From the IMG/VR virus record IMGVR_UViG_3300046010_013930, positions 1-23,573 of that record: 23,573 bases of DNA. One strand, given 5' to 3'. Below are positions 4,224 to 22,264 of this stretch, in pieces. The DNA is from a virus. Position 1 is the stretch's first letter, and each line of letters starts with the position of its first letter. A program made the translations under genes and the position numbers. The notes beneath the pieces were generated by a model. That model searched no databases. It was not told where the DNA came from and saw only the letters and a list, made by a program, of their open reading frames with translations.

Positions 4224-4378
4224 GGTTTCGGAAACGCCTTGGCCAAGGAGACCAGAGGCTTGGGTTTGTGGTCGGCATGGAAGCCGAAGAAGAGGTTGCG
4301 GTATTGTCTGGCCTTCTTGCGGGAGTCGATCGGGCCTAGGGCCAGAACGCGCCGCACGTAGGTCTTGAAGGAGGTCAT
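4220..4378 (-). CDS. Hypothetical small basic protein (52 aa)
   Basis: A short, strongly basic protein (MTSFKTYVRRVLALGPIDSR, then KKARQYRNLFFGF). The N-terminal helix plus high Arg/Lys content would suit nucleic-acid binding, but there is no recognised motif. Both ends are ATGA overlaps. Confidence 0.6.
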   Translation of the reverse strand: MTSFKTYVRRVLALGPIDSRKKARQYRNLFFGFHADHKPKPLVSLAKAFPKP

Positions 4379-4806
4379 GAGCGGACGTAGTAGTCGGTGC
4401 CTTGGTAGGTGACGGTGGTGAAGTCCATGGCCAGCTCGTTGGCGGCGTGATCCCAGTCGATGCAGGTGGCGGGCCAACTTGAGAAGTCTGCGATGGCTCC
4501 GGTGTCTTCGGCATATTGCAGGGCGTACGCCTCGAAGTCGGAACAGGGGATCAGGGTTTCACCGGAGTTCCATTCGGAGATCTGGTCGGCCAAGGCGTCG
4601 AGTTCCTTGAGTTCCTCGGCCTCTTCGTGACCGAACTCCAGTTCGGCATCGGACAGGCGTTCTTTGACCGCTTCGATTTTCTCAATGTCCTCTTCGGACA
4701 TCCCTTCTTGGCGGTATATTTCGCGGGCCTCGTCGAGTTCGTCTTTGAGAACTTGCAGTTCTTGGCGGCGCTCTTCGAGGTCGCGGGTGTCTAGGTAATT
4801 GCTCAT
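4375..4806 (-). CDS. Conserved phage protein with coiled-coil N-terminus and IDWDxAA domain (143 aa)
   Basis: Residues 8-75 form an acidic coiled coil (Glu/Leu-rich). The C-terminal domain contains LIPCSDFEAYALQYAEDTGA, WPATCIDWDHAANEL and FTTVTYQGTDYYVR. This last arrangement (IpxxxFxxYAxxxAxDxGa, then WPxxxIDWxxAAxxLxxDxtxvxxxGxxYxxR) is common in tailed phages and sometimes annotated as antirestriction-like; I regard the function as unknown. ATGA overlaps at both ends. Confidence 0.82.
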   Translation of the reverse strand: MSNYLDTRDLEERRQELQVLKDELDEAREIYRQEGMSEEDIEKIEAVKERLSDAELEFGHEEAEELKELDALADQISEWNSGETLIPCSDFEAYALQYAEDTGAIADFSSWPATCIDWDHAANELAMDFTTVTYQGTDYYVRS

Positions 4807-10803: not shown

Positions 10804-12945
10804 TTACCAGTGTTCCTTGTCCTCGACCGAGATGATGTACTTACTGATGTTACCTTTCTTGGAGTGCTTGAGCACGCGGGTCCCGCCCCTTTGGGCCAGG
10901 GTCCTTAGCTCGCGGCCCAGCCGCACCGGGGTGTACCGGCCAATGAAGGGTTTGAGGTTCCCCTCGTCCACCCCCATCAGGCTCGAATAGAGCTGGGTCG
11001 TGGTCCCCTTCCACTCGGCCACCGACTTGCTGTCGCGCCGCATCGAGGCCGCCCACATGTCGACCACCTCGATCAGCTTGGTTGCTGGGTTGTCTTCCAC
11101 GGCGGTGTGCAGCATCTCCGGGTGGTGGTAGGGCTTGACGCCGAAACGCTTGTTCTCCTCCCAGACCACCTCGTCAGGCGGCGAATAGGCCATTAACCAC
11201 CGCAGAAAGTGCGGTAACTCCTGGGCGATAACCTCCTCGACCTCCGAGTTCTTGCCGAACGGGTGCTGGTAGTCGGTCAGTTTGAAGAGCATGATCTTGT
11301 CCGCGACCGCATTGTCCATCGGGGGCAGGACCGACAGGGATTGCGGGTCGGTGTTGCAGGTCATCAAAAGCCGCCCGTACCAAGGGATCTCGATCGAGTC
11401 CTTGTGTTTCGGGTGGTAGCTGACGCGCGGGTTGGCCACGTGGGCCTTGATCGCCTCGCCGAACACCTTGTGCTTGTCGTAGTCCACCTGGCCGGTCGGG
11501 TCGTCGATACTCCAGACCGGATGTTCGGCCGCTGTCTTGTTGAAGCTGGTCTTGCCCTGCAGGTACGGCGTGGCATCGGCAAATCCGCCCAGGGCCGCGC
11601 CCACCACCCGCCAGTTAAGCAGCGTCTTGCCCTGACTCGGGCCTCCGGCCACCACGACCACCTGGCCCTGGGTCGGCTCGTTGTTGATCGCCCCCGCGTA
11701 GAACCGCGAGAACCAAGCCAGGAAGTACGGCAGTTGCTCGTCGCCGAAGACCGGCCAGAGCCAGCTCTTCAAGTAGGGCCACAGGATTTCACTGCCGTCA
11801 TCGGCGGGCTCGATGGGCTTGCGGAAATTGGTGTTGAGGAAACGGTCGTTGCCGATGTCCACGATCTCCTCCTCGGTGAAGAGGATCGGCACGGCGGCGT
11901 CCACCCGCTGGTGGGTCTGGATGGCGTCGACGACGCGGTCGAGTTGCGACGCGCCCTTCTTCGAATCGGTCTTGATCCCGTTGACTCGCAGCTTCCGGCT
12001 CACGTCCTCGACCTTGTAATCGTACCACCGGTTGGTCCCGTTCTTGCGCCAGTAGGCGCGGCCGTCATAGAAGAACTCCATCACGGCGCGGCCGATGACC
12101 TCCTCGCGGAACTTCTCGACAAAGGCGTTGCCGAGCAGCTCGCCCCAGGTGACGAACGCTTTGCCTGCGCGGTCGGTGTAACAGACCATCCCGTGGTCCC
12201 CGACCTGGCAGCCCACGCGGTCCACGCCGTCCTGAAGCCAGAACGTCGGCCCCCTCGCCCCGAGTTTGAATTCCCCCGGCCACCGGCCCGGCCAGCGCGC
12301 TTCCACCTCGGCCGCGATCTTGTCGATCGGGATCTCGGTGTCGGTCTCGCCGACCTTGTTCCAGTTGACCTTGTTGCCTGCTTCCACCAAAAGGTCTCCG
12401 AGAACATCTTCGCGCACTGCCGTAGAACCCGGCACGAGCTGCCAGTCATACCCGATCTCGAAAAGTTGGTTGGTGCGGAAGGTGCACTCGTCCAGTCCCG
12501 GCAGGATCTTGGCCAGCTTGAACTTGCGGGCCATCTCCTTGAGGACTGACTTGGTCATCTCCGGGCAGTCCACCGCGATCGGGCGGTCGAACTCCCAGAC
12601 GATGCGGGCATTGCCGCTGAAAGTCTTGCTGATCGCCACCGGCAGCGCGTCGGGGTTGCAGCGCTCGACCAGCTCGTTCAGATCAAAACTGTCGGGCAGC
12701 TTCGCGTCATAGTCGGCCACCAGCCCGTGCATCCAGCGCGCCGGGTTCTCCAGGCTGATACGTCGGTGCGGGTTGAGTCCCTCGAACGCGGTGTAGAAAC
12801 AGTGGTCGGTGTCCTTGTCCTTGATCCACTTCTCGTACTCTTCCTTGGTCTTGACCGGATAAGGGTCGACTGTCGCTTTCCATGGGTCGATGGGCAACGG
12901 TTTGACATCCGATGCGGACATGTTGGGGAGGTAAAATGCTTTCAT
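10804..12945 (-). CDS. Primase-polymerase/SF3 helicase fusion (713 aa)
   Basis: The N-terminal part looks like an archaeo-eukaryotic-type primase (PrimPol): motif I is GLVADYDAK with D78 and D80, then SKTFSGNARIVWEF and TFRTNQLFEI. The C-terminal part is a superfamily 3 helicase of the DUF5906/D5 kind: Walker A GGPSQGKT at 434-441, Walker B VWSIDDP with D481/D482, and motif C LLMTCNTDP. Such proteins prime and unwind at phage and plasmid origins. It is the last gene of the minus-strand replication operon, overlapping the 64-aa gene by ATGA and bordering the origin-like region. The second primase motif lacks the usual SxH His (GNAR), so primase activity is less sure than helicase activity. Confidence 0.88.
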   Translation of the reverse strand: MKAFYLPNMSASDVKPLPIDPWKATVDPYPVKTKEEYEKWIKDKDTDHCFYTAFEGLNPHRRISLENPARWMHGLVADYDAKLPDSFDLNELVERCNPDALPVAISKTFSGNARIVWEFDRPIAVDCPEMTKSVLKEMARKFKLAKILPGLDECTFRTNQLFEIGYDWQLVPGSTAVREDVLGDLLVEAGNKVNWNKVGETDTEIPIDKIAAEVEARWPGRWPGEFKLGARGPTFWLQDGVDRVGCQVGDHGMVCYTDRAGKAFVTWGELLGNAFVEKFREEVIGRAVMEFFYDGRAYWRKNGTNRWYDYKVEDVSRKLRVNGIKTDSKKGASQLDRVVDAIQTHQRVDAAVPILFTEEEIVDIGNDRFLNTNFRKPIEPADDGSEILWPYLKSWLWPVFGDEQLPYFLAWFSRFYAGAINNEPTQGQVVVVAGGPSQGKTLLNWRVVGAALGGFADATPYLQGKTSFNKTAAEHPVWSIDDPTGQVDYDKHKVFGEAIKAHVANPRVSYHPKHKDSIEIPWYGRLLMTCNTDPQSLSVLPPMDNAVADKIMLFKLTDYQHPFGKNSEVEEVIAQELPHFLRWLMAYSPPDEVVWEENKRFGVKPYHHPEMLHTAVEDNPATKLIEVVDMWAASMRRDSKSVAEWKGTTTQLYSSLMGVDEGNLKPFIGRYTPVRLGRELRTLAQRGGTRVLKHSKKGNISKYIISVEDKEHW

Positions 12946-14017: not shown

Positions 14018-15772
14018 CTATTTTTCGTATTTCTTGGTTATCTTGGCTTCGGCCGCCAGCGGCAGCGTCTTGGCCCATTCCGGCGGCGTCGACATGACGT
14101 CCAGAATAAATTCTTTGGCCTCCTCGGCCCGGTCTTCGCGGACGCAGACAACGACTTCGTCGTGCACGCGCATGATGACATTCAAGTCGACCTCGCGGAT
14201 CTTGCGCACGCATTCCATGAAAACATCCCTGGCCATGGCTTGAACGAGGTTTTCTGTCAGGCTCCCGCCCCACCACTTCATCCGCATGTATTTGCCGCCG
14301 CGTACGATCTCGGCCGAAAGGTGCCCCTCGTTGTTGTTCGGGTTGCGGTAAGCCAGCTTCCGCCCGCTCGGCAGTTCAACGTAGAACATATCATCGTTGC
14401 GGATGACCGAGGCGCGCAGGTTGTTCTCCAGCACCTTCCACAGTTCCCCGACCTTAGGGTTCTTCTTGCGGTAAAGGTGAACGAGCCGGGTCGCCTCTTC
14501 CTTGGGCAATCCGGTCACGTCACCGAAGCGCGTGATTCCCATGCCGTAACCCAGTCCGAGGTTGAGCTGCTTGACCAGATGCCGGATGCCAGTGGTGTCG
14601 GTGCGCAGCGATTCGGGCTTGTCCCAGAACCCCCAGGCCCTGGCTTGTGCTTCATAAAGATCGGAGCTGTTCTTGATGAACTCCAGCATCTCGGCGTCCT
14701 TGGCCAGGTAAGCCAGGCACCTCGGTTCGATCTGCGCCAGATCCGCCACGACCAGCGTCTTGCCCTCCGGAGCTTCGATCAGCCCGCGCACGTTGACGCC
14801 GTAGCTTTCCGCACGCTGCAGGTTCTGCATGTTGAGGCCCGCGTCCCCTGAATCCCTGCCCGTGGTGGCCCCGAAATACTTGAGTCCGTAGCCCATCCAT
14901 CCGTCGGGCCGGGTGCGCTCTTCCATTGTCTCCAACTTCCGCAACAGTGCGTTGCATTTGCGGAACTGGCGCATGGCCGAGACCCACGGATAACGGTCGC
15001 CGTATTCTTTTTCCCACGCTTCGCACTCTTGACTGTCCTCAGCCAGGGACGGCGGGGGCGTGATGCCGACCTTGCGGCATTCCTCGGCCAGGGCCAGAGG
15101 GGATAAAGTCTTTTTCTCTTCCTGAACCCACGGGAGTTTCTGCTCCGCCTCCCAGAGGAGGACTTTCAAGTGCTCGATGCGGTCTCGAATGACCGTCTTG
15201 TTGACCGGCACGCCCTGCAGACACATGCGCGTGGTCTCCTGTGAAAGCCACTGCTCCTGCTCGGACCACTGGTTGCCGTATTTCTCCCAGATCTCCAGGC
15301 AGTAATCGGCGTCCTTGATGGCATAATCCTCGACTTCGCGCCGGAATGCCTCGTCCATGTCCTCCCAGCGCTTGCCTTTCATCTTGTTGCGCGTGTCCTT
15401 GGACATCTGGGCCTGCAAAAGCGTCTCCGAAGCCCCCTTGAGGTTGCGCGGCGCGGCCAAAAAGGCGCTCAAATCGGCCGTACAGTCCCAAACGTGCGGA
15501 AAATGCGGGGGAACTTTGCCTTTCTCGACAATGCTCTCGTAGACCGGCTTGTCGAAGGACCGGTTGTGACTGACCCAGCGCCAGTTGGGCCCGGAAATGG
15601 CCGACCAGTCGAAATTTTCCGGTCGTCCGCAGTATTTCTGGCCCGTGGAGGTGGAGATCGTCACCAAGTAGGCATCGAATTCAGGGTGTCGGCAGTAATG
15701 CCACACACCCTGGCTGTCGATGCCCACGTCCTTCGAGTAGTAGGTCTCGAAGTCGACTGCTGCGGTTTGCAT
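14018..15772 (-). CDS. Family A DNA polymerase with 3'-5' exonuclease (584 aa)
   Basis: The N-terminal proofreading domain has D7/E9 (AVDFETYY), N70/D74 (HNRSFD) and Y150/D154 (DYAIKDADY). The polymerase domain has motif A VADLAQIEPR (D344, E349), motif B RHLVKQLNLGLGYG (R397, K401, Y409) and motif C VHDEVV (D538). All catalytic residues are present, so this is the replicative polymerase. No 5'-3' exonuclease domain. The residue matching E. coli Pol I Phe762 is Leu405. Motif A has Leu-Ala where Pol I has Tyr-Ser. It follows the 254-aa gene after 138 bases; the start after CCCCTTTT is the only ATG that keeps the exo I motif. Confidence 0.95.
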   Translation of the reverse strand: MQTAAVDFETYYSKDVGIDSQGVWHYCRHPEFDAYLVTISTSTGQKYCGRPENFDWSAISGPNWRWVSHNRSFDKPVYESIVEKGKVPPHFPHVWDCTADLSAFLAAPRNLKGASETLLQAQMSKDTRNKMKGKRWEDMDEAFRREVEDYAIKDADYCLEIWEKYGNQWSEQEQWLSQETTRMCLQGVPVNKTVIRDRIEHLKVLLWEAEQKLPWVQEEKKTLSPLALAEECRKVGITPPPSLAEDSQECEAWEKEYGDRYPWVSAMRQFRKCNALLRKLETMEERTRPDGWMGYGLKYFGATTGRDSGDAGLNMQNLQRAESYGVNVRGLIEAPEGKTLVVADLAQIEPRCLAYLAKDAEMLEFIKNSSDLYEAQARAWGFWDKPESLRTDTTGIRHLVKQLNLGLGYGMGITRFGDVTGLPKEEATRLVHLYRKKNPKVGELWKVLENNLRASVIRNDDMFYVELPSGRKLAYRNPNNNEGHLSAEIVRGGKYMRMKWWGGSLTENLVQAMARDVFMECVRKIREVDLNVIMRVHDEVVVCVREDRAEEAKEFILDVMSTPPEWAKTLPLAAEAKITKKYEK

Positions 15773-15910: not shown

Positions 15911-16675
15911 TTACTGCGTGTTGGCTACGAGTGACTCGAAGAACGCCGCATCCTCTTTGGAGTGCAGCCCGTCGAACTTGGCCTCGGGAATGTACCAAGT
16001 TCCCTTGGCCCCCTTGGTCAGTGAACTCGTGAGTTGCCACTTGCCGGTCCAGAGTCCGTTGGACAACTGGTTGTATCCGGCGGTGATGATCTTCTTACCG
16101 AGCGAGGTGAAGGCACTCGACGCCACGGTGTAGACCGCCAGCGTGTATTGCTTGCCCGCGTGCTCGCGGTAGAAAAACGCCGCGAACTCCTCTTTGAGGT
16201 TGGCCGGTTTCTCGATGGCCAGCGACAGGTGCGCAATCTCCTGGAAGTAGTTCGGCTCGCCCCATTTGAGGCTGCCTCCGTTGGCGATGACTTGCTCCTG
16301 CTTGTCATAGACCTGGGGCATGGACTGGTCCCCTTGTTCCAGTTTCTGCCGGTATTGCTTGTGCAGGCGCAGGACCGTGATGTTCAGCGGCGTTTTGCCG
16401 TCCGAAAGCATCGCTTCCTTGTTGAGCATGAAGACGCCCGGTGTCAGGCCCGAGTCAGCGAGTTCCCCGATCTTCTGGACCAGGTTGACGCGGGGCAGTT
16501 GGATGTCGCGCATCGTGATCTCGCCCGTGATGCCGCGCGCAGCGGGCACCGTCATGGCCTCAGACTTGGTTACCGCCACGGGGTGACTGTCACCTGCGGG
16601 CACGATTTGAGTCTCCGTCGCCGGAGCCTTACTGACGGCTTCGGGAGCCGTTTCTTTGAATGATACAGTTGCCAT
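15911..16675 (-). CDS. Putative phage single-strand DNA-binding or recombination protein (254 aa)
   Basis: The start MATVSFKETAPEAVSK is taken from the only ATG after the preceding stop that is close to the shared leader CCAAATAACCAA. Residues 1-45 are Ala/Thr/Val-rich and likely disordered. GITGEITMRDIQLPRVNLVQ (48-67) begins a beta-rich body; LRLHKQYRQKLEQGDQ and WGEPNYFQEIAHL follow. I do not recognise a named domain. The place between a RecB-like nuclease gene and polA is where other phages carry a single-strand-binding protein (for example DUF2815 types), so that role is inferred from context only. Confidence 0.7.
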   Translation of the reverse strand: MATVSFKETAPEAVSKAPATETQIVPAGDSHPVAVTKSEAMTVPAARGITGEITMRDIQLPRVNLVQKIGELADSGLTPGVFMLNKEAMLSDGKTPLNITVLRLHKQYRQKLEQGDQSMPQVYDKQEQVIANGGSLKWGEPNYFQEIAHLSLAIEKPANLKEEFAAFFYREHAGKQYTLAVYTVASSAFTSLGKKIITAGYNQLSNGLWTGKWQLTSSLTKGAKGTWYIPEAKFDGLHSKEDAAFFESLVANTQ

Positions 16676-16703
16676 ATATTTGGTTATTTGGATTATTGGT
16701 TTT

Positions 16704-17579
16704 TTAGGTTTTCTTTTTTCGGAGTTGGTAGGAAATGCCTTCATCTTGAAGGACTCCCAGGTCCCGCAGCTTGCCCTCCAACGCAAGCCGGGTCTTTGCT
16801 TTCGAGCCCCGAGGGGCTTTTTCGGCAAAAAGCTCTTCCAATTTCGGATAGGAAACTTTGTCCACGCAGGTGAGGAAGTCGCGCAGCTCGACCGCGTCCT
16901 GCACGGCCTCGAAGGCTCCGAGGGCACTGGTGATGGAACGCGGCTTGGACTGCTCGATGACTTTGTAGCCCGGCAGCTCCAACCCCTGGTCCACGGCCAT
17001 CTCGGTCGCGCGCTTGCGCACCCCGGTCGCCCAGGACTCGATGATCGGGACAAGGGTCATCAGGGCGGCGACCTTTGCCGGGTCGTCCTGCTCGCTGCCG
17101 TGCACGGAGTCCGGGATCGGCAGTCCGTCCTCTTGGTACCGTTGGGCGATTGTCAAAACTTTGGTCGCCAGCGCGGGACATTTCGCCTGATAGGCGCAGT
17201 AATCGCACACTCCCGCTTGCGGATTGAAACCCCCACCGGCCTCAGCCCGCTCGATGACTGTCGAAACACGTAGTCGGACGGTAGACATGTCATCCCTGGT
17301 GTAGGTGTGCGTACTAACCTCGTCCCGCGCTGGGACCAAAAACCACATGGTGATTTCTTTGACGTGGGGAAATTTCTGGAAGAGCCCGAGGACGTAGGCC
17401 TGCCCTTGGATGTTGATCTCCGCGTCGTCGATCGCGCCGTAGCCGGTCTTGTAGTCGATGGCGTCGGCGGTGTTGTCCGCGTAAATAATAAAGCGGTCAC
17501 ACGTTCCAAAAGTGGAACGTCCCGAGCCCAGGTCGATCTTGACCCGGATCTCGCGCAGGTCTTTGGCGATGGTTGTCAT
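16704..17579 (-). CDS. C-terminal half of a split RecB/Cas4-like Fe-S nuclease (291 aa)
   Basis: TFGTCDRFII holds D28, AIDYKTGYG holds D42 and K44, and INIQGQAY (Q58, Y62) follows: motifs II to IV of a PD-(D/E)XK nuclease. GVCDYCAYQAKCP gives C125-x2-C128-x5-C134, the same spacing as the last three Fe-S ligands of Cas4 and AddB. The usual N-terminal half (SxxxxxxxCP and GxxxH) is absent. A TAA directly before the ATG (TAAATGA) excludes an extension. The missing motifs are found at the end of the helicase at 18204-19790. The last 130 residues resemble the tail of DUF2800-type phage nucleases. ATGA overlap with the gene upstream. Confidence 0.85.
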   Translation of the reverse strand: MTTIAKDLREIRVKIDLGSGRSTFGTCDRFIIYADNTADAIDYKTGYGAIDDAEINIQGQAYVLGLFQKFPHVKEITMWFLVPARDEVSTHTYTRDDMSTVRLRVSTVIERAEAGGGFNPQAGVCDYCAYQAKCPALATKVLTIAQRYQEDGLPIPDSVHGSEQDDPAKVAALMTLVPIIESWATGVRKRATEMAVDQGLELPGYKVIEQSKPRSITSALGAFEAVQDAVELRDFLTCVDKVSYPKLEELFAEKAPRGSKAKTRLALEGKLRDLGVLQDEGISYQLRKKKT

Positions 17580-17905
17580 TTAGAAGCGGCCTCCTCCCGG
17601 TAAGCGAAACATGCCGTTTTCCAGTTTTTGGCTTCGATTTGCGCGTCACCCAACTCACGGCGCAGTTTTTTAGCTTCGACTTTCAGGGCCTCGAAATAGG
17701 AGTTCATCAGGTCGCGCCCCCGCTCCGCTTTTTGGGCACGAATCGTCAGGTCTTTGATCTCTTTCTCACACTCGTAAACGTTCCGCTCTAGTTTGCGGGC
17801 AAAGTTGGCGCTGACCGTTCCGGTTTTGTTAGTGAAGTGCCTGCCCAGCTTGCTGATCGACAGAAAGCTCGTTAGCTGGGCGTCTGTTAAGGGCGTGTCA
17901 CTCAT
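17576..17905 (-). CDS. Hypothetical coiled-coil protein inserted between the nuclease halves (109 aa)
   Basis: It begins MSDTPLTDAQLTSFLSISKL. From about residue 33 to 98 it is a continuous charged helix (ARKLERNVYECEKEIKDLTI, then RELGDAQIEAKNWK), probably a coiled coil. The N-terminal MSDTPLTDAQ style is common in small phage proteins that have an N-terminal 'TPLTDA' and a helical body. Function unknown. It overlaps both neighbours by ATGA. Confidence 0.72.
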   Translation of the reverse strand: MSDTPLTDAQLTSFLSISKLGRHFTNKTGTVSANFARKLERNVYECEKEIKDLTIRAQKAERGRDLMNSYFEALKVEAKKLRRELGDAQIEAKNWKTACFAYREEAASK

Positions 17906-18207
17906 GAGGCGCTTGCTCCTTCGGGTAAGACCTGTTGTATCGCCTCAAACGCATACTCGCCGCCTCCCATTTGCACCGCCGCTTTGCCCTGCCACGCTTC
18001 GCACACCCAATCGAAGCGCACCGTCCACGCGAGCAAATCCTTATCCCAAGCCACTCGACCGCGAGCCATTGGGACATCGGCCACGGGCAGCGGCTTAGTC
18101 TGGTCAACCACCCACACGCCACCCGCCTCCCGCACCCGCTCGTAGCGTTGAGCGTAAACCAGCACCGTGTCGCCTTCGGCCAATGCGTTTCCGTGAATGT
18201 CTTTCAT
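17902..18207 (-). CDS. Hypothetical SH3-like small protein inserted between the nuclease halves (101 aa)
   Basis: MKDIHGNALAEGDTVLVYAQ opens a beta-barrel-like domain (DxxGxxLxxGDxVxV, typical of SH3-like or YorP/YopX-type small folds). WDKDLLAWTVRFDWVCEAWQ follows, and it ends GGGEYAFEAIQQVLP. The start is an ATGA overlap with the helicase stop; the longer frame runs across the helicase gene. No function is known to me. Together with the 109-aa gene it separates the two parts of the nuclease. Confidence 0.72.
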   Translation of the reverse strand: MKDIHGNALAEGDTVLVYAQRYERVREAGGVWVVDQTKPLPVADVPMARGRVAWDKDLLAWTVRFDWVCEAWQGKAAVQMGGGEYAFEAIQQVLPEGASAS

Positions 18208-19790
18208 ACGCCCGTTTTCCTCCGGATGATTTGCCCGACATACCCCTGCATGGCCTCGTAGATCGCCCGCTCGCCGTCGTTGGCGCACTTGGACGGGTCG
18301 TCCTTTTCCATGGCCTCATGGATGCGGTCTCCCTTGTCCGAGGCCCAGTTGGACCCCTCGCGGTTCTGCCAGGAAGGGCAGATTTCCTTGTACTTAAGGG
18401 AAGAGGGTCCGTGCTTGGCGTGGGCCGGTTCAGCAGCCGAGGGCACAACCGGTTGTGAGGCGGGCGGTGTCATTTGTGCCGTCAACACTACGGAACCTGT
18501 TATGGGTGTCAAGTCACCTTTGTGTAGCTCGGATAAATTTTTTAATTTCTGCTTGACGGAGGCCTCCACTTTCTCTTCGACCGTCCCGGCCGCGAACAAG
18601 ATACGTTGCACCGAGTTTGTCATAGATCCGGCACGGTCGACGCGCCCGAGAGTTTGCAGAAGATCCTTGGCGTTGAACGTCGGCGAGATCAGCGCGGTGC
18701 GCGGCCTCACACCTCGCTGGTCATGTAGCGAAACTCCGAGTCCTCCGGCCGCGATGTTGCAGAGGACGACGTGATCAACATCGCTTGAAAATCGGTCCAC
18801 GACCAACTGTCGCTCTTCGGCTTTCTGACCGCCTTTGATCGTGCCGTAGTTGGCTTTGAGCCGTTGCCCAATCGCTTCAATCGTCGCCTCAAAGTTGACG
18901 AAGACGGCCACCGAGTTCCCCGCGTGGAGTTCGTCTTCGATGAGTTCAACCGTCGCAGGTACTTTTGCAAGTTCGACTGCTTGTCGCGCTCGGAGCTGGG
19001 CGACGAGTTTTTGCGCTGCTTTGTTTTTGCTGTCGCTTTGCATCCGCTGTTCGAGGGCGGACAATTCTTGGTCCATTTCGTCATAAAGTTTCTGGATTGA
19101 CCCCTTGTCCCCGAAGTCGAGGGGGTCGGTGATAACGCGCGTCTCCTTGAAGTGTTCGGCGAGCATGATCCGTGTCATACGGTCGCCGTGCTCGGGGTAG
19201 AGTTCGTAGTTGATCTTGTCCAAGGCCCACGACTCGCGGTGCTTGAACTCAAGCTGGCCCCACGGATTGATCACGCACCCGTGGGCTTTGGCCCAGTTGT
19301 AGAAATTCGAGAGCGAGTGCAGCCCGAGAAGGAATCCGCTGGCCCGCATCTCGGTCGGGTCTTCCGCTGCCGAAGCCGAGAGCAAAAGATTCCGCCAGGG
19401 TTTGGCCGCGATGAGCATCTTCGCGTTCTGACTCCACATCCCCTGGCACCTGTGCACCTCGTCCCAGACAATCAAACAGTCGTTTGGAATCTTCCACTCG
19501 AACTGTTTGCCGCTCCAGTGCCCGAAGCGCGTCTTGCCGGTGCGCAGCTTCTCGTAGTTAAGGATTCCAAGGGCCTTGGTACCCTGCTCCGCGCAGGTGC
19601 GTTCCCAGGAGGGGATGACAATCTTCGGACAGACGACGAAGATGGAAGCACCGAGCCGCTTGGCTGTCTCGATGGCGCAGACAGTTTTGCCTGTGCCCGT
19701 CTCGGACGAATCCAACGCGGCCCGGTGCTTTTGTAGCGCGTTAACCAACCGGTTAACGTGCTCCTCTTGAGCGGCGTAGAGGGTCTTCAA
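18204..19790 (-). CDS. SNF2/DEAD-type helicase fused to the N-terminal half of a RecB/Cas4-like nuclease (528 aa)
   Basis: The start is taken as TTG in TTGA, overlapping the resolvase stop; Met440 is another in-frame start that would release the C-terminal part alone. The helicase part has Walker A ETGTGKT (30-36), DEVH (110-113), SAS (138-140) and QTLGRVDRAG (motif VI), as in SNF2-like phage helicases. After a Pro/Ala linker (about 440-458) comes SSLKYKEICPSW with C471 and GDRIHEAME with H491, the N-terminal motifs of RecB/Cas4/DUF2800 nucleases. The frame ends at GYVGQIIRRKTGV, just where the nuclease should continue with its D and DxK motifs. Those are in the gene at 16704-17579. Confidence 0.88.
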   Translation of the reverse strand: MKTLYAAQEEHVNRLVNALQKHRAALDSSETGTGKTVCAIETAKRLGASIFVVCPKIVIPSWERTCAEQGTKALGILNYEKLRTGKTRFGHWSGKQFEWKIPNDCLIVWDEVHRCQGMWSQNAKMLIAAKPWRNLLLSASAAEDPTEMRASGFLLGLHSLSNFYNWAKAHGCVINPWGQLEFKHRESWALDKINYELYPEHGDRMTRIMLAEHFKETRVITDPLDFGDKGSIQKLYDEMDQELSALEQRMQSDSKNKAAQKLVAQLRARQAVELAKVPATVELIEDELHAGNSVAVFVNFEATIEAIGQRLKANYGTIKGGQKAEERQLVVDRFSSDVDHVVLCNIAAGGLGVSLHDQRGVRPRTALISPTFNAKDLLQTLGRVDRAGSMTNSVQRILFAAGTVEEKVEASVKQKLKNLSELHKGDLTPITGSVVLTAQMTPPASQPVVPSAAEPAHAKHGPSSLKYKEICPSWQNREGSNWASDKGDRIHEAMEKDDPSKCANDGERAIYEAMQGYVGQIIRRKTGV

Positions 19791-20233
19791 ACTAACCCCC
19801 GATGGGCAGCGTGGTAAATGAGTAATGCGTCCGCAGTTGCCAATGTTATCGGGCACTTGGGGTAGAGCTGCTGGGCCTTGTTCTTGAGCTTGTTCTTCCA
19901 CTCGGTCTTCGACATGCCGTTGGAGTTGCCCAAGCTCAGGGCTTTCTGCCACTTCTGCGGAGTCACCTCGCGCAGTTCCAGGCCATGCATGTAGGTTATC
20001 GCTTCGAGGTGACCAACACCCTTGCCGAAATTAAACATGGCCGAGCCGGGCGCTCCCCGGCCTCCGGCGTAGCCGCCGACCTTTTCGAGGTAGACGACTC
20101 CGCCGGAGGGGAATTGGCGTAGTAGAGCGGCCAGGTCACCGAGAGTCTCCGGCATGTTGCAGATTTCGGGTGCGGAAATGTCTGCGCCGAAGGCAAAGCC
20201 TCCTGATTTACCTGGGTCGATGGCGATGATCAT
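19787..20233 (-). CDS. RuvC-like Holliday junction resolvase (148 aa)
   Basis: Residues 1-15 read MIIAIDPGKSGGFAF with catalytic D6; VVYLEKVGG carries E50; the C-terminal TLATADALLIYHAA carries D135, with H141 close by. This is the acidic triad order of the RuvC/RNase H fold. Length fits phage resolvases, which cut branched DNA before packaging. The start chosen makes the ATGA overlap with the HTH gene and begins at the first beta strand; the longer frame adds a non-conserved N-terminus that overlies that gene. Confidence 0.85.
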   Translation of the reverse strand: MIIAIDPGKSGGFAFGADISAPEICNMPETLGDLAALLRQFPSGGVVYLEKVGGYAGGRGAPGSAMFNFGKGVGHLEAITYMHGLELREVTPQKWQKALSLGNSNGMSKTEWKNKLKNKAQQLYPKCPITLATADALLIYHAAHRGLV

Positions 20234-21088: not shown

Positions 21089-22264
21089 TTAATAAAGTTT
21101 CTCGAAGATCTTCTGGGTGTCAATCACCTTGAACCACTCTTCGGCTATCGTTTTGGAACTAAGGCCTTTGTACGTGGCCTGAATTTCGCTGGCTGAGTTG
21201 CCGCACTGCTCGGCGATCTCGTTGGCGTTGCGGGTGATGGCCATGGCGTAGGAGATGTAGGCCTTGCGATTGCCATTCTTTTTGTGAGCGACCCCCGCCG
21301 CTTCACGCAATTTACTCACCCGCTTGTTGATGTTGCCATGAACGAGCTTGGTAAACTTGCGCGCCTCGGCGTGTTTGGCGATTCGCATCAGGCCGTCTTT
21401 CACCGTGGGCGGGAAGTAGGCGTAGCGCCGGTTGGTTGTCTTGGTGATTTCCGTCCTGAGCACAAAGGCCCCCTCTTCCCAGTCGACGTCCGACCACTTG
21501 AGTCGGGCAATCTCGGCCAGGCGAATGCCGCTGTAGTTGGCCGCGATGAGCCACGGAACCATGGTCCAGTGGGCCTCTTCGAAGAGGCGGCTAAGTTCGT
21601 CGGGCGTGTAGAAGTTCGGCGTTTTCTTGAAGTGCTTCGAAGAGATCTTCTTGGTCCCGTCGGCCACGGTGCCTTTGTACTCCGGCATGAAGCTCGTATA
21701 CCCCTTGGTCAAAGCCCATTGGTACATGGCTTTGATGTTGACGCGGTTGTTGTGTCGCGTGCGCAGGTCTTCGAACGAGCCGAGGTAGTTGTTGAGATCA
21801 TCGACGGTGATGGTCTTAAAGGCCTTGTTGCGGAAGTAATCGGCGAACTTCCCAACGTGGTACTTGATCGTGGCCAGCGTGTCTTTCTGGATCGGATCTC
21901 GGCGCTTGACGGCGAGAAACTCTTCGGTGACAGTCACCGCAGACACCGACGGCATCAGGTTGTGGTGTTGCGCGTAGAAGCGCAGCACGTCCTCTAGCTT
22001 AGTGCCCTTCAAAACATGTTTCCATTTGTCGACGCCCTTAGTTGCCGGTTGCGGCGTTTCGCCTTTCTCGAAGGCGGAAAGGACCTGCGCTGCACGGTCC
22101 AGCGCGTCGTCGAGATCGTTGCGCGTTTCGCGGATGCGGTTTTTACCCAGCCGGTAGGTCACCGTGTAGGTGTATTCGCCGTCCCGGAGTTGGCGGTAGA
22201 TGGTGGCTTTGCCGTAGCGGTTCCGCTGGACCAGCGGCCACGAGATTTTGCGTGTAGTGCTCAT
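21089..22264 (-). CDS. Tyrosine integrase of the divergent Verrucomicrobiota-like type (391 aa)
   Basis: Residues about 105-195 are a SAM-like core-binding domain (VTVTEEFLAVKRRDPIQKDT...NYLGSF). The catalytic part has R248 (YSGIRLAEIARLKW), K275 (TEITKTTNRR), R333 (GNRKAYISY) and Y365 (EIQATYKGL). In this family HxxR is replaced by NxxR (N330) and the LGH box by CGNS (N355-356 region), followed by a Trp-Phe motif (AEEWF). I associate this 'RxSFiSY...GNS...Y' pattern mainly with Verrucomicrobiota. It catalyses site-specific integration at the att site. It lies next to the candidate attP; N-terminal arm-binding domain at residues 1-70. Confidence 0.9.
   Translation of the reverse strand: MSTTRKISWPLVQRNRYGKATIYRQLRDGEYTYTVTYRLGKNRIRETRNDLDDALDRAAQVLSAFEKGETPQPATKGVDKWKHVLKGTKLEDVLRFYAQHHNLMPSVSAVTVTEEFLAVKRRDPIQKDTLATIKYHVGKFADYFRNKAFKTITVDDLNNYLGSFEDLRTRHNNRVNIKAMYQWALTKGYTSFMPEYKGTVADGTKKISSKHFKKTPNFYTPDELSRLFEEAHWTMVPWLIAANYSGIRLAEIARLKWSDVDWEEGAFVLRTEITKTTNRRYAYFPPTVKDGLMRIAKHAEARKFTKLVHGNINKRVSKLREAAGVAHKKNGNRKAYISYAMAITRNANEIAEQCGNSASEIQATYKGLSSKTIAEEWFKVIDTQKIFEKLY

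Follow-up and report, generated by a model that had tools for sequence, protein, structure and literature searches.

A putative phage helicase-nuclease encoded in two chains, with a DUF2800-type nuclease divided inside its fold and probably reassembled in trans

Several phage enzymes are encoded by genes in pieces. The nrdA gene of Aeromonas phage Aeh1 is split by mobE, the topoisomerase gene 39/60 of T4 is split by mobA, and the DNA polymerase of Aeromonas phage 25 is divided into gp43A and gp43B; for NrdA and gp43, the two chains were reported to form an active enzyme (PMC2988022). The inserts of these genes are homing endonucleases or untranslated spacers. The DUF2800 / PHROG 69 exonuclease of phages is normally one separate, intact gene, and a duf2800-gp2.5-polA module has been described (PMC8093625). 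In AdnAB and AddAB, an SF1 motor is followed by an unbroken RecB-type nuclease at the C-terminus. Four cysteines are a feature of the Cas4 family, which occurs in fusions or operons with helicases; these partners are UvrD-like or YprA-like and no split is mentioned (PMC5704561). The locus described here, which belongs to a family of uncultured phages, shares features with all of these systems. It resembles Aeh1 nrdA, T4 39/60 and gp43A/43B in having one enzyme gene in two coding regions with extra sequence between them, the DUF2800 exonuclease in its sequence family and its place ahead of a putative SSB gene and polA, AdnAB and AddAB in the order of motor and RecB-type nuclease, and Cas4 in its PD-(D/E)XK fold and four cysteines. 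It differs from the DUF2800 exonuclease in carrying the N-terminal lobe of the nuclease on a helicase, and from AdnAB and AddAB in its SF2-type motor and its split nuclease; by sequence, its nuclease appears nearer to DUF2800 than to Cas4.

The window that we analysed is the whole of a 23,573-nt stretch of viral DNA (IMG/VR record IMGVR_UViG_3300046010_013930, positions 1 to 23,573). A replication and recombination operon on its minus strand runs from 20562 to 14018. It contains, in order, an excisionase-like gene, a RuvC-like Holliday junction resolvase (19787..20230; PHROG 1770, 1e-18), a 528-aa helicase gene with a TTG start (19790..18204) that overlaps the RuvC-like gene by TTGA, two small genes of 101 aa (17902..18207) and 109 aa (17576..17905), a 291-aa nuclease gene (16704..17579), a 254-aa protein (15911..16675) and a family A DNA polymerase (14018..15772; Pfam DNA_pol_A, 1.3e-29). 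The 254-aa protein, which matches Pfam Pam3_Gp34 at the cut-off of that family (4.9e-6), stands in place of the Gp2.5-like single-strand binding protein and is a putative SSB, judging by its position as described in PMC8093625; the nuclease, putative SSB and polA follow the order of the published module. The window also encodes an integrase (22264..21089), which suggests that the phage is probably temperate. Prokaryote genome contigs were scanned for relatives and none was found, so that neither a host nor a prophage copy was identified. Elsewhere on the minus strand, positions 4375-4806 gave a weak match to anti-restriction PHROG 2059 (E 3.3e-5), and positions 10804-12945 encode a protein of 713 aa that has a DUF5906 domain and matches primase PHROGs weakly, likely a primase-helicase.

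Three regions can be distinguished in the helicase gene. Residues 1-420 (18531..19790, minus strand) form an SF2 motor of the ResIII/Helicase_C, SNF2-like type, based on Pfam (ResIII, 1.1e-7; Helicase_C, 4.8e-9), on the DNA helicase family PHROG 62 (5.9e-40) and on an AF2 model. Residues 421-456 (18423..18530, minus strand) are a flexible linker. The last 72 residues, 457-528 with the stop codon (18204..18422, minus strand), are in register with the N-terminal lobe of unsplit orthologues and include C471 (codon at 18380-18378) and H491 of the GDRIH motif (codon at 18320-18318). This tail alone had no match in Pfam or in isolated phage genomes and was detected only with a profile of intact relatives. 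The 291-aa product carries the motifs TCD28, D42YK44, Q58GQAY62 and C125DYC128AYQAKC134 (CX2CX5C) and matches DUF2800 (PF10926; 1.4e-23, 84.1 bits against a gathering cut-off of 21), PDDEXK_1 (1.8e-9) and the PHROG 69 exonuclease (4.8e-31). Its matches begin only at profile position 117 of DUF2800 and position 112 of PDDEXK_1; an intact relative, L061, covers DUF2800 from position 1. The match to a PADLOC Cas4 profile is weak (15.7 bits, E 0.0034), and the genomic context is a phage replication module.

Exactly two matches in the window were obtained with a profile of 26 intact nucleases: profile positions 3-83 fall on the helicase tail (E 3.7e-31), and positions 80-374 on the 291-aa gene (E 4.3e-107). 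Each of five other split records gave the same two matches, and with this profile we found no second nuclease in these six records, one of which is 70.8 kb long and which may be fragments. Ten residues (C22, H42, D102, D116, K118, Q132, Y136, C199, C202 and C208) are invariant in the 26 intact relatives. The four-cysteine pattern of the Fe-S nucleases Cas4, AddB and AdnA, with one cysteine at the start of the nuclease and three at its end, is found across the two pieces (C471 with C125/C128/C134), as are all of the RecB-like PD-(D/E)XK motifs (H, D, DxK and QxxxY). Moreover, in L007 and L050 a single open frame of 814 aa spans both window genes end to end; the helicase gene aligns to its residues 1-524 (73% identity) and the 291-aa gene to residues 526-813 (78% identity). 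The original prediction had assigned the helicase tail and the 291-aa gene to one nuclease on the basis of C471, GDRIH, the D/DxK/QxxxY motifs and CX2CX5C, and it had noted three ATGA junctions. All of these are present as stated, the tail matches the N-terminal part of intact nucleases rather than an unrelated domain, no complete nuclease was found elsewhere in the six split records, and the unsplit version sought in related phages exists. As these unsplit orthologues show, the two pieces are the parts of one DUF2800 / RecB-Cas4-type nuclease.

Relatives collected by scanning IMG/VR with nuclease, helicase and tail alignments fall into three architectures. A helicase gene and an intact, separate nuclease gene are found in 26 contigs, and one fused helicase-nuclease gene in 33. 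Ten of the fused contigs are close to the window: they encode one chain of about 810-820 aa whose helicase domain is 71-75% and whose nuclease is 76-78% identical to those of the window. In the third architecture, the nuclease is split with its N-lobe on the helicase; it comprises nine contigs, namely the window and 3300042507_006171, 3300042475_003805, 3300042556_002431, 3300046011_009513, 3300046010_013256, 3300032294_001518, 3300042335_000815 and 3300042452_001289. Only this group has an interrupted nuclease, and its nuclease match always begins at residue 77-78. The spacing of the module in the split group is regular: RuvC and helicase genes are always at -4, the SSB and polA genes are 131-166 apart, and the nuclease and SSB genes are separated by 18-28 bp, except in L039 (176 bp). 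Because these are metagenome contigs, an assembly artefact or frameshift error might be suspected; however, the same split point recurs in independent contigs with different inserts, and nine contigs from several metagenomes carry it, which contradicts such an error and leaves it a practically negligible probability.

In the helicase-domain tree, the split group forms one clade (95/89) that is sister to the close fused genomes, with the separate architecture outside (98/95). The nuclease tree is compatible with a single split clade with weak support (62/70) and is disturbed by long branches. The simplest history suggested by these trees is that separate genes were fused and that the fused gene was split again at a new place, inside the nuclease; the first step is oriented by midpoint rooting, and its direction is less certain than that of the step from fused to split. 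This refines the original prediction, in that fusion of the nuclease to the helicase appears to have preceded its division. Further scans of IMG/VR did not reveal an intermediate that is split but has no insert. Among genomes with separate genes, L060, L061 and L152 have 0.6-1.6 kb of other sequence between helicase and nuclease, and it seems that genes are also taken up at the helicase/nuclease boundary in this architecture.

We then considered the selection acting on the pieces. Pairwise dN/dS within the split genomes (Nei-Gojobori), which averages over the time since each pair parted and describes regions rather than single residues, was 0.07-0.16 for the helicase, 0.08-0.16 for the N-lobe and 0.08-0.14 for the C-terminal part, and mostly 0.26-0.74 for the linker. 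Values in the fused genomes were similar, which indicates that the split has not relaxed the constraint on the N-lobe. Gene fission can come before gene loss, and the split could in principle mark a nuclease that is decaying into two pseudogenes. Such a decay is extremely improbable: it is contradicted by the dN/dS values, nine contigs keep both reading frames open and under purifying selection, ribosome-binding sites precede the starts, and all catalytic and cysteine residues are retained. The split thus proves stable, as had been proposed from its ATGA overlaps.

The AF2 model of the intact L050 nuclease (mean pLDDT 86.6; pTM 0.65, which is moderate) has its best structural match in the nuclease domain of AdnA (Z 15.7, rmsd 2.8 over 200 residues), and this match covers model residues 9-211, that is, both pieces. 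Further matches were to the Argonaute-associated Cas4-family ACE1 (Z 11.6), SSO0001 (11.2), RecE (11.0), AddA/AddB (about 10.7-10.9), RecB (8.7) and Dna2 (8.5), with Cas4-family chains at about 10-11.6. In the intact nuclease, the split point lies after helix 56-73 and before strand 78-92. In the model of the window helicase, the motor is ordered to about residue 420, the linker (421-459) has pLDDT below 50, and the tail forms helices 482-496 and 505-526, which correspond to helices 33-47 and 56-73 of the intact nuclease (offset 449). The region of Cys471 has a pLDDT of about 54-74 here against about 84 in the intact model, although the underlying alignments differ; the poor order predicted for this stretch is as expected of a lobe modelled without its partner.

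It is conceivable that the 291-aa part is functional as a minimal PD-(D/E)XK nuclease that needs neither the first cysteine nor the histidine, the tail being kept for another purpose such as recruitment. The part does contain D, DxK, QxxxY and three of the four cysteines, and it matches PDDEXK_1 by itself. We nevertheless consider this unlikely: the conserved residues of the tail (C, G, H and AxE) are nuclease residues that are invariant across fused and separate nucleases, they lie in a region with dN/dS of 0.08-0.16, and the predicted fold without the tail misses its first three helices. It is mainly the purifying selection on the N-lobe, together with the invariance of C471 and H491, that argues for assembly in trans.

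The position of the split is identical in all nine contigs. The N-terminal piece ends in RRKTGV or RRTGK and the C-terminal piece starts with MTTI(A/T/V)KD, MTTIARD or MTHIAKD; in the window, ...RRKTGV* / MTTIAKD... stands against ...MRGK-QVTRD... in the unsplit form. Relative to the fused form, no residues were lost and a few were added, and the turn at this point varies in length among relatives (alignment columns 77-80). The pieces of the window are 624 bp apart and its three internal junctions are all ATGA, the one between the helicase and the 101-aa gene lying at 18204..18207 (minus strand) with a CGGAGG ribosome-binding site upstream; the gene for the C-terminal part has its own GGGAGGAGG ribosome-binding site. 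Across the split genomes, wherever cargo meets the helicase or nuclease gene, the junction is ATGA or GTGA. The fused genomes L050, L052 and L048 have an in-frame GTGAC exactly where the split genomes have their ATGAC start. This would fit an insertion at a pre-existing GTGA, which we offer only as a suggestion because L051, L047 and L058 have no GTGAC at this position.

The cargo itself is highly variable. Inserts span 322 to 1006 bp with unrelated content between genomes, and at least six different gene sets occupy the split: genes of 101 and 109 aa in the window, 109 aa in L040-L042, 110 and 154 aa in L039 and L008, 71 and 156 aa in L046, a 124-aa gene, a 154-like gene and a zinc ribbon in L043, and genes of 99 and about 74-87 aa, a 78-aa helix-turn-helix protein and a zinc ribbon in L044. 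The 101-aa gene has no detected homologue and is unique to the window among the split genomes. The 109-aa gene, which encodes a helical protein without a confident family match, is common to the six closest split genomes (window included) and behaves in evolution like a genuine gene (dN/dS 0.10-0.11). Comparison of the cargo with Pfam, PHROGs and PADLOC gave no match to an endonuclease family, and there was no confident match to defence or homing genes, save for the helix-turn-helix protein of L044 and a match to PHROG 18663, of unknown function, in L043. The original prediction was that insertion of the 101-aa and 109-aa genes had divided the nuclease. The split inside the nuclease stands, but these two genes need not have caused it, since a single site holds different cargo in different genomes, and the 101-aa gene occurs in the window only. 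The placement of an insert exactly within one enzyme might also suggest that the pieces are rejoined by RNA splicing, inteins or translational bypassing. This is very improbable, however, given that positions 16500-18700 had no Rfam match to an intron or structured RNA, the insert is fully coding with ATGA overlaps, the inserts differ in content over their range of lengths, and the flanks run on as nuclease sequence and leave no space for an intein.

A zinc-ribbon gene offers a possible clue to the origin of the split. In most fused genomes, this gene, which encodes about 90 aa, stops where the helicase gene begins; it lies 88 bp before the helicase in L050 (4349-4618) and 1.7 kb away in L051. 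In L043 (7340-7597), L044 (6328-6510) and L046 (6584-6799), the split nuclease contains a homologue with 50-58% identity to the copies of the fused genomes, and the RuvC gene adjoins the helicase. The zinc-ribbon gene thus sits on the other side of the helicase, which suggests that the helicase with its N-lobe exchanged order with an accessory block that includes this gene. It is plausible that this exchange caused the split; the cargo of the window itself arrived later or replaced the zinc-ribbon block. The switch of sides also led us to consider a tandem duplication followed by complementary loss, which would explain the order, and no remnant of a second copy was found.

Very likely, in our view, the two chains encoded at the locus make up one helicase-nuclease that reassembles in trans. 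The best model that we infer is an AdnA/Cas4-like Fe-S nuclease on a helicase tether, with obligate reassembly. An ancestor would have fused an SF2 helicase to a DUF2800 nuclease of the RecB/Cas4 type with a four-cysteine Fe-S site, and the fused gene would then have been cut at the turn where the last helix of the N-lobe gives way to the first strand of the catalytic sheet, with small accessory genes filling the cut. Chain 1 would consist of the helicase, the flexible linker and the N-lobe with the first Fe-S cysteine and the active-site histidine, and chain 2 of the sheet (D, DxK and QxxxY) and the other three cysteines. Both would be made from one operon through coupled ATGA starts, each with a purine-rich ribosome-binding site upstream. 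The C-terminal part would capture the tethered N-lobe in trans, so that the fourth cysteine completes the Fe-S site and H491 the active site. The helicase may then carry the reassembled nuclease along DNA and resect ends for phage recombination and replication, beside the RuvC-like resolvase, the putative SSB and PolA; this role is suggested by the family and the neighbouring genes. More doubtfully, the split may be more than an accident that is tolerated: it may be a standing docking site where the clade takes up and swaps accessory genes, and nuclease activity may require that the pieces assemble with the helicase, or may require the cargo genes whose translation falls between them.

The locus belongs with the known split enzymes of phages. 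As in other phage genes in pieces, relatives have an unsplit orthologue and both pieces are retained; a homing-endonuclease insert, which is true of Aeh1 nrdA and T4 39/60 but not of all cases, was not found in the split clade. In comparison with Aeh1 nrdA, T4 39/60 and gp43A/43B, what is new is that fusion preceded fission, that the cargo varies between genomes and has no endonuclease likeness, and that the division runs through both Fe-S ligands and active site, which would be shared between the two chains. We found no split Cas4/RecB nuclease in the literature searched, which is not proof of absence; as far as that literature shows, this is the first split Fe-S nuclease of the RecB/Cas4 type. 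One phage group shows all stages, with helicase and nuclease separate, fused and split elsewhere, and with relatives of each kind to compare. Its split site gathers changing accessory genes instead of a homing endonuclease, and the locus, which would offer a natural split nuclease carried on a helicase, makes it testable how an enzyme survives a cut through its own active site.
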